This document shows, in pieces, positions 49,900 to 54,761 of a DNA stretch of 64,000 nt. The notes beneath the pieces were generated by a model, which was not told the DNA's origin, did not search any database, and was given only the letters and a program-made list of their open reading frames with translations. Source of the DNA: Phycisphaerales bacterium. GTDB taxonomy: Bacteria > Planctomycetota > Phycisphaerae > Phycisphaerales > UBA1924. The position numbers were made by a program, and so were the translations under genes. Location: positions 62,001 through 126,000 of the forward strand of contig JADLFE010000054.1 of NCBI GenBank assembly GCA_020845755.1. The letters are read 5' to 3'. The number at the start of each line of letters is the position of its first letter. Position 1 is the stretch's first letter.

Positions 49900-52872
49900 T
49901 CACTTCGACTCAAACCAGTTCCGCCCGATGTGCGCATCGGCCTTGAGCGGCACGCGCAGCGTCATCGCCTGCTCCATCCTTCTCACCACCGTGTCGCGCA
50001 CCGACGCCGCCAGTTCCTCCGGCGCCTCGAAGACGAGTTCGTCGTGGATCTGCAGGAGCATCAGCACGCGCCGGTCCTCGCCCGACTTCGCACCGAAGAA
50101 CTCCTCCGCCGTCGCCGTGGATGCAAACTGCTTGTGCAGGTCGACCATCGCCAACTTGATCAGGTCCGCGGCCGAGCCCTGCACCACGCTATTGATCGCC
50201 GTGCGCTCCGCCAGGGCCCGGCGCTGGGGATTCGTCGACTCGATGTCGGGGATCAAGCGCCGACGCTTGAGCATCGTCTCGACATAGCCGAACCGGCGCG
50301 CCTGCTCCACGCACTCCTCGAGGAACGTCGTGATCCCCGCGAATCTCCGCTTGTATCCGTCGATGATCTCGGCGGCCTTGGTGTTGTCGATCCCAAGCCG
50401 TCGCGCCAATCCGAACGGCGTGATCCCGTACACGATGCCGAAGTTCACCATCTTTGCGCCGCTGCGCTGCTCGCGGGTGACGCAACTGGGCGCGATGCTG
50501 TGGATCTGGGCCGCGACGGCGGTGTGAATGTCCTCGTCCCGCTGGAACGCCTCGATCAGTGCCGGATCGCGCGACAGGTGGGCGAGCAGCCGCAACTCGA
50601 TCTGCGAATAGTCGGCCGTCACCAGCACGCGGCCCGCCGGCGCGACGAACGCCTTGCGGATATCCCGCCCGATGTCGGTGCGGATCGGGATGTTCTGCAG
50701 GTTCGGATCGCTCGAAGCCAGCCGCCCCGTCGCCGCCACGGTCTGGTTGAAACTGGTGTGGACGCGCTTGGTGCCGGCGTTGATCGCGTCCTTGAGCGCG
50801 ACCAGGTACGTGCTTACGAGTTTGGTGAGTTGGCGATACTCAAGGATCAAGGACGGGATCGGCGTCGTGACCTCCGCATCCTGCACCAGTTTTTCCAGTA
50901 CCTCCGCGTCGGTTGAGTGCCCCGTCTTGGTCTTCTTGATCGACGCCAACCCGAGCCCCGCCTCGACATCGCCGGGCTTGTTGAAAAGGGCCGCGCTCAA
51001 TTGCTTGGGCGAATCCGGGTCAAACGTCCGACCGATCGACTCCATCGCCTGCTTGTCGATCTCGTGCGCGAGCTCCTTCACGCGTGCCTCGAGCCGCTCG
51101 CGCTGGCGATCCAGTTCGCGCGGATCGACCAGAATTCCGTTCCACTCCAGTTCCGCCAGCACCTCCACCAGCGGGAGTTCAAGATCATGGAACAGGCTCG
51201 CCAAGCCCATCGCCCGAATCTGCGGGAGCATCTTCTGGGCCAGGCGCAGCGAGAGATCGGCGTCGCCGGCGGCATACGGCGTGGCGAGTTCGATCGGCAC
51301 CGATTCAAACGAGCGCTGCGTCTTGCCGCTCCCGATCAGTTCGCTGATCGACTGCTTGCCCATGCCGAGCAGGGCGAGGCCCAGCGCGTCGAGCGAGTGC
51401 GACGAGCGCGAGGAATCGATGAGGTAACTGGCGACCATGGAATCGCACGCGCCGGGGGCCGCGATGCCGCGGAGGTGGATCCCCGCGCCGCGAAGCACCA
51501 TGAGGTCGTACTTCAGGTTGTGCCCATACTTGGGCTTGCCCTCGTCCTCGAGGACCGGGCGGAGCGTGTCGAGCACAGCCTTCTCGTCGAGGTGCTTCGA
51601 AGGATCGGGCGAGCGGATCGGGATGTACCACGCATGCCCCGCCTCGACGCACAGCGAGAGGCCGCAGAGTTTGGCGTCGCGGACCGCCAGCGACGTGGTC
51701 TCGGTGTCCACCGCGACCGCGTCCGCGGCACGCAACTTCGCCACAACCTCTCGCAGTTCGCCGAGCGTGGTCACGCACTCGTACTTGGCGCCCTCCGGCA
51801 CCGGCGCGGCTTTGGGGGCGTCACCATGGCCAAACAGCGAATCGGCAAACAGCGGCGCGTCGTCGGCGCTCGCCGGCTTGGGCTTGACGGCACCTGCTCC
51901 ACCGCCCGACCGTGCGCCCGCCGTAGCGCTGGCGGCGGCAGCACTGGCACCCGCGGCACTTCCCACGCCGCTCTGGCCAAGGAGTGCTCGGACCTCGTCC
52001 TGGTACCGATTGAATCCCAGTTCCTTCAGGATCGGGATGAGCTTTTCGAGTTGCAGTTTCGCCGTCTCGGCCTGATCGAGCGGGAGTCCTTCGCGCGATT
52101 CCAGCGGCGCGTCGGCGTCGAGCGTGACCAGTTTCCGCGAGAGCGCGAGCAGGTCGCGCGAGGCGCGGATCTTCTCGCCGCGTTTGCCCGTGATCTTGTC
52201 GGCGTTTGCGAGTAGGTTGTCGAGCGTTCCCCAGGTCTTGATGAGTTCGGCGGAGGTCTTCTCGCCCACGCCCTCGACACCGGGCACGTTGTCGACGCTA
52301 TCGCCCATGAGCGCGAGCATGTCGACGATCTGGTCGGGGCGCAGGCCGCTGGATTCCATGAGCGATCTGGTGTCGATCACGCTGTCGGTGTGGATGTCGA
52401 ACATCTCAACGCCGTCGGCGAGCAACTGCTTGAGGTCCTTGTCCTTGGAGATGATGCGGATGGTGAGATCGGGGTGCGCGCTCTTGAGTTTCTTGACGAG
52501 CGTGGCGATGACGTCGTCGGCCTCGTAGCCCTCGGAGCCCAGGATGGGCACGCCGATCTCGCGCAGGATCGCCAGGCAGCGCTCGACCTGCGGGCGCAGG
52601 TCCTCGGGCGGCGGCGGGCGATGAGCCTTGTAATCGGGGTAGAGTTGCGAGCGGAACGTGCCGCGATCGCCGGAGACATCGAGCACGAGCGCGACGTAGG
52701 CGGGCTTGCCGCCGACCTTGCCCTCGCCGCGGAGGAGTTTGAGGAGCATGCCGATGAACCCGAAGGTCATGTTGGTGGGTTCTTTGGTGACGGGGCTGGT
52801 CATGGGAGTTCGGATCGCGTGGTAAGCGCGAAAGAACTGGGCGTAGCCGTCGATGAGGTAGAGGGTCGGCAT
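49900..52872 (-). CDS. polA: DNA polymerase I
   Basis: 990 residues with all three parts. The 5' nuclease domain (about 1-300) starts MPTLYLIDGYAQFFRAYHAI and has YEADDVIATL. An Ala/Gly/Ser-rich linker covers about 310-350. The 3'-5' exonuclease keeps AVDTETTSL, so proofreading is likely. The polymerase has motif A DYSQIELRLLAHLS, motif B KMVNFGIVYGI and motif C QIHDELVFEAP. The ATG at 52872 follows GAGTGATTC, a weak ribosome site. Right upstream lies the inverted repeat that borders the GxxExxY gene. Confidence 0.97.
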   Translation of the reverse strand: MPTLYLIDGYAQFFRAYHAIRTPMTSPVTKEPTNMTFGFIGMLLKLLRGEGKVGGKPAYVALVLDVSGDRGTFRSQLYPDYKAHRPPPPEDLRPQVERCLAILREIGVPILGSEGYEADDVIATLVKKLKSAHPDLTIRIISKDKDLKQLLADGVEMFDIHTDSVIDTRSLMESSGLRPDQIVDMLALMGDSVDNVPGVEGVGEKTSAELIKTWGTLDNLLANADKITGKRGEKIRASRDLLALSRKLVTLDADAPLESREGLPLDQAETAKLQLEKLIPILKELGFNRYQDEVRALLGQSGVGSAAGASAAAASATAGARSGGGAGAVKPKPASADDAPLFADSLFGHGDAPKAAPVPEGAKYECVTTLGELREVVAKLRAADAVAVDTETTSLAVRDAKLCGLSLCVEAGHAWYIPIRSPDPSKHLDEKAVLDTLRPVLEDEGKPKYGHNLKYDLMVLRGAGIHLRGIAAPGACDSMVASYLIDSSRSSHSLDALGLALLGMGKQSISELIGSGKTQRSFESVPIELATPYAAGDADLSLRLAQKMLPQIRAMGLASLFHDLELPLVEVLAELEWNGILVDPRELDRQRERLEARVKELAHEIDKQAMESIGRTFDPDSPKQLSAALFNKPGDVEAGLGLASIKKTKTGHSTDAEVLEKLVQDAEVTTPIPSLILEYRQLTKLVSTYLVALKDAINAGTKRVHTSFNQTVAATGRLASSDPNLQNIPIRTDIGRDIRKAFVAPAGRVLVTADYSQIELRLLAHLSRDPALIEAFQRDEDIHTAVAAQIHSIAPSCVTREQRSGAKMVNFGIVYGITPFGLARRLGIDNTKAAEIIDGYKRRFAGITTFLEECVEQARRFGYVETMLKRRRLIPDIESTNPQRRALAERTAINSVVQGSAADLIKLAMVDLHKQFASTATAEEFFGAKSGEDRRVLMLLQIHDELVFEAPEELAASVRDTVVRRMEQAMTLRVPLKADAHIGRNWFESK

Positions 52873-52893
52873 GAATCACTCGGAAGAGGTTCA

Positions 52894-52913
52894 ACACGGA
52901 GGGACACGGAGAG
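52894..52913 (+). repeat. Left inverted repeat of the cassette
   Basis: Two turns of a CACGGAG-type unit, in the short gap between polA and the GxxExxY gene. Confidence 0.65.
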
Positions 52914-52946
52914 AAACGGCGGGGAAAAGCCTACAGGCCGGTTAGA

Positions 52947-53327
52947 TCAGATTACCAAACGGCGGAACTGCTCCATGAGTCGGCGGGAGTTGAATTTGAG
53001 GAGCGAGCCGACGCGGCGGCCGCTGAGGCGAAGATACGTCACGAGTTGGGCCTCGTGAATCGCGGCAAGAGACTCGACCGCTTTCAATTCCACGATCACG
53101 GCGTCATCAACGAGCAGATCAATCCGAAAGCCCGCATCAACGTGCGTTCCCTCGCACATAATCGGAAGCTCGACCTGACGGCGTACCGCGGCGCCTCGCG
53201 CTACGAGATCTTGATCAAGGCACGCCTCGTACGCGGATTCAAGCAGACAAGGTCCGAGCCGCTGGTGCACTTCGATCGCGGCCGCGATGACCTGCGCGGA
53301 GACCTCCTCGTGAATCAGATCTCCCAC
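52947..53327 (-). CDS. GxxExxY family protein
   Basis: 126 residues. AAIEVHQRLGPCLLESAYEACL is the family start, though the first Gly of the GxxExxY motif is Cys here (CLLESAY). RIDLLVDDAVIVELKAVESL has the D...ExK spacing of PD-(D/E)xK nuclease-like folds, and it ends with LLKFNSRRLMEQFRRLVI. Function is not proven for any member. It starts at a GTG with GAGGAGG 5 bases before it, 10 bp after the GlmU-like stop, so it can be translated from that gene's mRNA. It is bounded by inverted repeats. Confidence 0.88.
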   Translation of the reverse strand: MGDLIHEEVSAQVIAAAIEVHQRLGPCLLESAYEACLDQDLVARGAAVRRQVELPIMCEGTHVDAGFRIDLLVDDAVIVELKAVESLAAIHEAQLVTYLRLSGRRVGSLLKFNSRRLMEQFRRLVI

Positions 53328-53337
53328 GGCATCCTCC

Positions 53338-54657
53338 TCACTTCCTCCCTCCGTGCCCCTCCGTGTCGCTCCGTGGTGAGGAGAGGTCTTTCAGCAGTTC
53401 CATGTACGCCTCGCTGGGGGTGACGGCACGCCGGGACATCATCGCCCGCGCGACCTCGATGAATTTCTCGAAGCGGTACGCGCGAGCGCCGGCGTCGGTC
53501 CGCCATGTGAACGCGTCGACGCACCCGCTCACGGGCTCGGTGGCGGCCCACATCGATCCGGTCCCCACGATCGAGCCGGTCATGATGCGCGTGCCGATCG
53601 CGGTCTTCACGTGGTCGCCCAGCATGCAGCCCAGGAACTGCTGGCCTGTTCGCTCATTCGACGAGTGCGGCGTGGCCTTGGCGATGATCTCGCCGTAGGT
53701 GTTGAGGAGATTTGAGTTGTTGGTCGCAGCGCCGAGGTTGACCCACTCGCCGAGGTAGGAGTCGCCGAGGTAGCCGTCGTGGCCTTTGTTGGAGAAGGCC
53801 TGGAAGATCGTGCCGCCGACCTCGCCGCCGACCTTGCACCAGGGACCAATAGAGGTCTGGCCCCGAATGGTGGCATGCTCGTTGATAATTGCGTGGGCGC
53901 CGATGAAGACCGGACCGATGACGATCGCGCCGGGGCGGACAACCGCATGTTCATCGATGATGATCGGGCCGTGCTCGAGATCGAAGGTTGCGCCGGGATA
54001 GACCTTGGCGGACGGATGGATGTGGAGGCGGGCATCGCCGAAGATGGTCGCGCCCTTGGCGTGCCCGCCGCCCAGGAGTCGCTCGGGGAGCAGACGGAGA
54101 TCGACGGCGAGGGCGGCGTCGCGGTGGGCGCGGATGCTCCAGGGTCGGTCGAGCGTGAAGGACTTGGCGGCGCGGATGGTGTTGGCGGGCTGAATGAGCG
54201 CCCCGGCGAGGAAGGCCGCGGCGGCGCGAGCGTCGACCCGAATGGCAAGCACGGCGCCGGCGGCGTCGGTGATGGCGGAGTTGAGCGGGAGCGAGGCGAG
54301 TGATTTGGCGTCGAGGGGCTCGGCGTCGAGCGAATCAGCCTTCACGATGGGCGGGAGCGTGCACCGCCCGCTTACGAGCGTGATCTGCTGGTCGGGGTTT
54401 GCGGCAATGTCCGTGCCGACGAGGGTGTTGACGGGGATGCTGATCTCGCCCTTGGCGTATCGCTCGGCGGTGGTTGGCGCGAGCGAATCGGGCGTGCGGA
54501 GCGCGATGACGCGGAGGTCGAGGAGGGCGGCGAGGCGCTCGAGGTTGGTGAGCGCGCCGGTGCGGATGTCGAAGGCGGGTCGGGTGTGGGTGAGGGTGCC
54601 GATCTGACCGAGCGAGTCGTCGAAGACGACGGCCGGGATTTCGCCGCGTGTGAGCAT
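53338..54657 (-). CDS. GlmU-like sugar nucleotidyltransferase with left-handed beta-helix
   Basis: 439 residues. The N-terminal half (from MLTRGEIPAVVFDDSLGQIG) resembles the degenerate nucleotidyltransferase domain of GlmU-like proteins. The C-terminal half has hexapeptide-repeat rungs (ATIFGDARLHIHPSAKVYPG, GPIIIDEHAVVRPGAIVIGP) and NNSNLLNTYG. It probably makes or acetylates a sugar nucleotide for the cell envelope. The last 10-15 residues (SDTEGHGGRK) are encoded by an intergenic repeat, so the native end seems to have been replaced. TACACT lies 6 bases before the ATG at 54657. Confidence 0.82.
   Translation of the reverse strand: MLTRGEIPAVVFDDSLGQIGTLTHTRPAFDIRTGALTNLERLAALLDLRVIALRTPDSLAPTTAERYAKGEISIPVNTLVGTDIAANPDQQITLVSGRCTLPPIVKADSLDAEPLDAKSLASLPLNSAITDAAGAVLAIRVDARAAAAFLAGALIQPANTIRAAKSFTLDRPWSIRAHRDAALAVDLRLLPERLLGGGHAKGATIFGDARLHIHPSAKVYPGATFDLEHGPIIIDEHAVVRPGAIVIGPVFIGAHAIINEHATIRGQTSIGPWCKVGGEVGGTIFQAFSNKGHDGYLGDSYLGEWVNLGAATNNSNLLNTYGEIIAKATPHSSNERTGQQFLGCMLGDHVKTAIGTRIMTGSIVGTGSMWAATEPVSGCVDAFTWRTDAGARAYRFEKFIEVARAMMSRRAVTPSEAYMELLKDLSSPRSDTEGHGGRK
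53347..53366 (-). repeat. Right inverted repeat of the cassette
   Basis: Reverse complement of the left repeat with two mismatches. A third related unit (CTCCGTGGTG) follows at 53370. It encodes the SDTEGHGGRK tail of the GlmU-like protein. Confidence 0.65.
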
Positions 54658-54663
54658 GAGGGG

Positions 54664-54669
54664 AGTGTA
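54664..54669 (-). promoter_or_regulatory. -10 box of leaderless GlmU-like gene
   Basis: TACACT on the minus strand with 6 bases (CCCCTC) to the ATG. Confidence 0.6.
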
Positions 54670-54761
54670 TCGTAAAGCAACAAGGCAACATGGCACAGCG
54701 GCACACTCTCATCGTGGTGCAGGGCATGTGGCCGCCCATCGACCTCACCATCGCCGCGTGA

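Follow-up and report, generated by a model that had tools for sequence, protein, structure and literature searches.

GxxExxY genes lie between inverted arrays of a degenerate 7-mer that also recur as gene-free hairpins: a possible REPIN/RAYT-like system

Introduction

The comparison system for the element described here is REPIN/RAYT, also known as REPtrons (PMC3116915, PMC3733652), in which the enzyme is an HUH (Y1) tyrosine transposase and the REPIN is an imperfect palindrome tagged with GTAG. Our element resembles it in having palindromes dispersed between genes at high copy, a low-copy cognate gene flanked by those same palindromes, a chromosomal location, and repeat families that are specific to each genome. 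TIRtrons, which carry TIRYT genes, place a single HUH transposase gene between long inverted repeats with the motif GGGGWSAS (PMC3733652); they are similar in this layout and in that some of the repeats recur as dispersed families. MITEs and insertion sequences (IS) share terminal inverted repeats and the existence of both gene-bearing and gene-free copies. At the level of the protein, the likeness is to Cas4 and other PD-(D/E)XK enzymes, in predicted fold and in a D...ExK...Q motif.

Here, we report that a GxxExxY gene in a planctomycete genome is a single instance of a small element with a very wide distribution, in which the gene sits between inverted arrays of a degenerate 7-mer. In the open-access literature that we searched (subscription papers were outside our scope), we found no description of these repeats or of their link to GxxExxY.

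Results

A GxxExxY gene between two facing arrays

The window, by which we mean the whole 64-kb stretch of DNA that was analyzed, contains a GxxExxY gene (PDDEXK_3) at 52947..53327 on the minus strand, with a GTG start and a product of 126 aa. This ORF matches PF13366 with an E value of 1.6e-36 and 125.7 bits (curated cut-off 22) over residues 8-123, which is the whole domain, and TIGR04256 with an E value of 1.7e-36 and 125.1 bits (cut-off 35). Its neighbors on the same strand are a GlmU-like sugar nucleotidyltransferase/acetyltransferase gene upstream (53338..54696; TIGR03991, E 2e-93) and the DNA polymerase I gene, polA, downstream (49900..52872; NF004397, E 1.6e-291).

The arm on the polA side (52891..52923, plus strand) is a tandem CACGGAG array with units at 52895-52901 and 52905-52911, a degenerate third unit at 52915-52921, and the outer end TCAA. 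The glmU-side arm (53347..53379, minus strand) is an inverted tandem array of three CACGGAG units (53349-53355, 53359-53365, and 53369-53375), with GGTGA as its outer end on the plus strand. Pitch is 10 bp in both arms, of which the polA-side arm has two clean units and the glmU-side arm three. The original prediction, made from sequence alone, described an 18-of-20 inverted CACGGAG repeat around a lone GxxExxY gene, and this architecture is shown: we measured a core repeat of 21 nt at 90% (52894-52914 / 53346-53366) that extends to 33 nt with 82% pairing (52891-52923 / 53347-53379), and the PF13366 ORF is the sole ORF between the arms, with no DDE transposase there. That prediction overlooked three things: that each arm repeats a degenerate 7-mer in tandem, that gene-free copies of them are dispersed, and that their copy number tracks the gene.

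A chance origin of the inverted repeat can be ruled out. The flank-to-flank score at the window gene (18.0) was reached by none of 2000 dinucleotide shuffles of the flanks, and the tandem CACGGAG pattern occurs four times in the 64 kb, every time at the GxxExxY locus, compared to an expectation of 0.33. We also rejected a known RNA family as the identity of the arrays, given that an Rfam search of the window region and of nine hairpin loci returned no match.

Two further claims held: the right repeat provides the last codons of the GlmU-like gene, whose product ends in SDTEGHGGRK-stop inside the right array (stop codon 53338-53340), and the GxxExxY GTG begins 10 bp past that stop. A Shine-Dalgarno-like AGGAGG before the GTG (53333..53338, minus strand), read from sequence alone, overlaps the stop codon of the upstream gene. 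The accompanying claim that the gene borrows the host mRNA has not been demonstrated, and use of the host transcript remains an inference.

Facing arrays enclose GxxExxY genes in 15 phyla

We scanned GTDB contigs and obtained 80 GxxExxY loci from 15 phyla, including archaea, 78 of which were scored for flanking arrays by locally aligning the 300 nt upstream with the reverse-complemented 300 nt downstream and taking the best match, with a threshold of 13. Of the 78 loci, 69 scored 13 or more, compared to 5 of 274 control intervals shifted within those contigs (p 3.5e-36); medians were 21.25 for GxxExxY loci, 9.5 for cross-locus pairs, and 9.0 for shifted intervals (n=274). The generality of the arrangement is thus shown, and the prediction is not refuted by an absence of repeats around other family members. 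The general unit is CRCNRAG at a pitch of 8-11 bp, with outer ends of about TTHACC...GGTDAA. At 34 GxxExxY loci that we read from the window's order, facing arrays are present nearly everywhere, with unit variants such as CACAGAG, CGCGGAG, CACGAAG, CAGAGGAA, and GCAGATGAAC. Every GxxExxY locus examined on named replicons (Sphingomonas, Bacteroides, Gemmatirosa, and Bernardetia) also has them.

A phage- or plasmid-borne element was considered and rejected, because GxxExxY is nearly absent from such records: we found it in 6 of 72,556 plasmid records and on 1 viral contig, and in none of 50,697 phage records. This near-absence would be odd for an ordinary transposon and is expected of RAYT-like elements.

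A second gene family, encoding four-helix-bundle proteins (TIGR02436; L298-L327), likewise lies between inverted tandem arrays, here built of different units such as GGGACTAGTGACTAG, GGCATCAGGCACC, and AGTTAAAAGTTAAA; 26 of 28 of these loci score above the cross-locus 95th percentile. That this family has a different array motif suggests protein-specific ends.

Gene-free hairpins follow the gene

To count arrays, we used the pattern ACCACNRAGN{1,4}CACNRAG, which combines the outer end with the next unit, in 201 genomes of the window's order, all of which were searched with PF13366. The median was 12 arrays per genome among planctomycetes with a strong PF13366 match and 1 in the rest, and five or more arrays were present in 56 of 80 genomes with a strong match compared to 11 of 121 others (OR 23), while the reversed-pattern control averaged less than one per genome. 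Genomes that have only a weak PF13366 paralogue, which is array-less like L013 in the window's genome, serve as an internal control for this link; their median of one array is that of genomes lacking the gene. In an acidobacterial order (120 genomes), the medians were 21.5 arrays with the gene and 1 without it (OR 22.9). Neither comparison includes a phylogenetic correction. Co-occurrence of arrays and gene is therefore shown in two phyla, with exceptions: 14 acidobacterial genomes with GxxExxY have fewer than five arrays of the counted type, and five others (G327, G333, G335, G362, and G364) have 31-123 arrays and zero PF13366 matches, possibly reflecting incomplete bins, relics, or another driver. 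Within one genus, array number and gene copy number did not correspond.

When read out, the arrays are mostly paired arms of hairpins about 65-300 bp long. The existence of gene-free copies is shown, as gene-carrying genomes contain up to more than 100 gene-free palindromes with the same arms. Five gene-free hairpins have fold z-scores of -4.8 to -10.9. In other phyla, we counted up to 240 arrays per genome (reversed-pattern control, 0-4), and a Methanosarcinales archaeon has 52.

Some loci depart from the usual layout. In Aridibacter (G221; L328-L331), array pairs face outward (GTGGT...ACCAC, about 33 bp apart), the opposite of the common arrangement. Facing arrays at L225, L226, and L227 surround other ORFs (167 aa and 118 aa), and in one case an apparent IS3-type transposase gene; the last is likely a nested insertion, although the identity of the gene does not come from a family-library search. 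In G047, a second inverted pair (GGCCGCAAAGAGGC... / ...GCCTCTTTGCGGCC) is nested within hairpins at L230, L237, and L239.

Arms match hairpins of the same genome

In genomes where we read both, the arms of gene-bearing copies match hairpins of their own genome better than those of other genomes (23.1 versus 16.4; permutation p 6e-4), which shows same-genome arm matching. Within a genome, a copy's own arms match each other clearly better than they match other arms in G047 and G098, slightly better in G175, and not better in G107. Support for strictly co-evolving arms within a copy is thus only weak, and the cross-genome match therefore mostly reflects genome-specific arm families. GxxExxY copies and hairpins of G047 also have a common spacing pattern.

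Orthologous sites differ in occupancy

The glmU-like gene and polA are adjacent in many genomes of the window's family. Their junction is vacant in six same-family relatives (G005, G007, G018, G031, G032, and G035) and contains GxxExxY with arrays in G000, G001 (same genus), G006 (another genus), and G099 (a third genus). The arrangement is therefore not universal, and the prediction that the cassette is an insertion survives the comparison with empty sites. Insertion at the 3' end of a gene with the upstream ORF kept open, as had also been proposed, is supported by the window locus, G001, G006, and G099; in Sphingomonas (fabD/fabG) and Bacteroides (radA/next gene), the fit between adjacent genes is comparably tight. 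In G002 and G003 of the same genus (L040, L041), the junction contains a nucleotidyltransferase (PF01909) / HepT-like (PF01934) pair, i.e., MNT-HEPN, beside which the polA-side repeat CACCGTGTCCCTCCGTGTTGAA alone remains, as if the pair had replaced the GxxExxY cassette, a possibility we raise without pressing it. Given that the junction can be empty, GxxExxY-filled, or MNT-HEPN-filled among relatives, we consider this site variable.

At L039 in G001, the right arm of GxxExxY is separated from polA by a second array, made of four CTCCGTG units, and by an ORF of about 78-86 aa with no Pfam match. Elsewhere, many genomes in two families have a GxxExxY cassette at the groEL/dnaJ junction (L010, L069, L072, L075, L076, L079, L085, L086, and L091); G000, G015, and G062 also have a four-helix-bundle gene no more than about 3 kb away. 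A third recurrent site (L009, L070, and L083) is located between a dehydrogenase-like gene and the gene downstream; its units vary by genome (CGCGGAG, CGCGGAG/CGCAGAG, and CACAGAG), yet the arms of each copy match.

We joined the flanks of 16 G047 copies and searched for them in the five genomes of its genus, where many of the sites are continuous, that is, empty. One GxxExxY copy, at G047:C58, is missing from G039 (L276), and a sequence of similar length occupies the site in G043 and G055. Presence and absence at orthologous sites is thereby shown. However, these comparisons are made at species level, and the intergenic flanks have diverged too far for the exact ends of the element to be fixed or a target-site duplication to be resolved when filled and empty sites are aligned within the genus, and no transposition event was resolved in them.

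Other loci bear on copying. Over 112-145 bases, four hairpins of the archaeon G231 share 86-98% identity, with surroundings that are for the most part unrelated; one of the four has lost a unit from both arms. The gene of Gemmatirosa kalamazoonensis sits between two complete hairpins, and in 300 kb of sequence that we read there are seven paired copies, two of them around the gene. This hairpin is on both large plasmids of the strain (at least 40 matching pieces per record) and on no other plasmid record.

A predicted PD-(D/E)XK nuclease

Residues D70, E80, K82, and Q94 are conserved in the GxxExxY alignment, and the D...ExK...Q motif that they form is intact in the window copy. An AlphaFold2 model (pLDDT 93.6, pTM 0.87) has a predicted PD-(D/E)XK fold, with Cas4 SSO0001 (4ic1) as its top solved structural match (Z 9.6) and restriction endonucleases and Hjc junction resolvases at lower Z. 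Foldseek returned nothing below 1e-3 with this model, so the placement rests jointly on the Pfam profile, the motif, and the fold; no solved relatives were found by sequence. The nuclease-like D...ExK pattern of the original prediction thus agrees with the predicted fold, placing GxxExxY in the PD-(D/E)XK superfamily closest to Cas4, while nuclease activity itself is only inferred. The protein differs from Cas4 in being much shorter (126 aa), with no Fe-S cluster cysteines noted and no CRISPR context, and sequence similarity is weak (Cas4 profile E 0.005).

The name motif of the window copy reads GPCLLESAY. As had been predicted, Cys stands in place of Gly, which occupies this column in 76 of 76 other aligned members, the same-genus orthologue included. 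In all, 5 of 36 near-invariant columns are changed in the window copy (Gly27 to Cys and Asn111 to Lys are two of these), which may be decaying. With a dN/dS of about 0.19 against the same-genus orthologue (0.085/0.446; 0.13 for a GlmU segment), the gene has been under selection overall. The GxxExxY protein tree requires 38 phylum changes (minimum possible 14, shuffled mean 55.6) and, as far as its few resolved branches allow, is partly clustered by phylum and partly mixed.

Discussion

Because GxxExxY genes are nearly always found between arrays, and gene-free hairpins with the same motif are found in the genomes that carry them, these loci look like overlooked, tiny genome-spreading elements. 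The reading that we narrowly favor, by analogy, is a REPIN/RAYT-like system with an unrelated enzyme, in which the nuclease mobilizes the arrays; cutting and mobilization are inferred. The nuclease, usually present in one to few copies, would recognize the arms of the arrays, probably when extruded as a hairpin or folded as a single strand. It would cut them, such that hairpins are copied into new intergenic sites, often directly behind the stop codon of a gene, and its own gene would occasionally be copied along the same route. That the nuclease is the mobilizing enzyme and that it acts on hairpin DNA are both inferences. Three findings lead us to favor it as the mover: array counts track the gene in two phyla, the gene's arms and the hairpins are cognate, and the four-helix-bundle genes have arrays of a different motif.

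The element meets the REPIN/RAYT criterion that dispersed palindromes follow a cognate gene. It is not a member of that system, as neither the HUH enzyme nor the GTAG tag is found: GxxExxY is PF13366 only, a predicted PD-(D/E)XK protein, and its arms are tandem CRCNRAG units at a pitch of 8-11 bp. Its hairpins are mostly 70-300 bp, and it is spread over 15 phyla, including archaea. The PD-(D/E)XK protein and CRCNRAG arrays likewise set it apart from TIRtrons, with their HUH transposase and GGGGWSAS motif. Unlike MITEs and IS, it has no DDE transposase, and its termini are tandem arrays with a unit that varies between genomes. No target-site duplication was seen, but with flanks as diverged as these, one would not be resolved.

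A bolder reading, which we find slightly harder to accept than to doubt, is that these loci form a separate pan-prokaryotic class of transposable elements. Here, a stand-alone PD-(D/E)XK nuclease, Cas4-like in fold and about 126 aa long, would move tandem-7-mer palindromes, unlike elements driven by HUH or DDE enzymes, with the four-helix-bundle genes at the head of a second class that runs parallel to it and has its own motif.

The main rival, which remains possible, is a passenger model. Another enzyme, such as an HUH transposase, a reverse transcriptase, or an IS transposase, would recognize the array ends, and GxxExxY would be frequent cargo, perhaps with a role in addiction or defense. 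Consistent with this model, inverted arrays enclose other ORFs too (L226 and L227), TIR families around HUH genes are known (PMC3733652), and some genomes have arrays without the gene. Against it, arrays track GxxExxY with an OR of about 23 in two phyla, though co-occurrence with HUH transposases was not compared and phylogeny was not corrected for; GxxExxY arms are cognate to hairpins of the same genome; and the unrelated four-helix-bundle family has its own array motif, which suggests ends specific to each protein.

We consider an RNA-level model unlikely. It holds that facing arrays are kept for pairing in the transcript, affecting translation or stability of the enclosed gene, and that gene-free hairpins are independent RNA elements whose mobility is incidental. 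The arms can pair, gene-free hairpins fold strongly, and the GxxExxY start is close to the upstream array. However, the hairpins are high-copy, present or absent at orthologous sites, and near-identical in one archaeon, all of which calls for a copying process, and no Rfam family matches the window region or the nine hairpin loci searched.

Less likely still is a homing-like model. In it, GxxExxY would be a selfish endonuclease that recognizes the arrays and cuts empty sites, and repair templated by filled copies would spread the arrays. The predicted single-domain nuclease and the filling of the same junctions (glmU/polA and groEL/dnaJ) in different genera and families would fit, but arrays are absent at empty sites, most copies are gene-free, and the sites are many and unrelated, which does not resemble homing. 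Finally, the original prediction taken alone, an isolated local cassette insertion with no wider system, is correct in its local facts and all but excluded as an explanation, as family members in 15 phyla lie between the same arms, which also occur at high copy without the gene.

Returning to the REPIN/RAYT-like reading, the annotations of a great many prokaryotic genomes include GxxExxY genes without assigning them a function, and the link to a repeat family gives these genes a testable role. The same link explains a large group of palindromes, so far unaccounted for, in planctomycetes, acidobacteria, verrucomicrobia, proteobacteria, and archaea. Should the nuclease prove to move these repeats, PD-(D/E)XK enzymes would join HUH and DDE enzymes as drivers of the spread of repeats in bacteria, and the REPIN/RAYT way of life would gain a second, independent origin.
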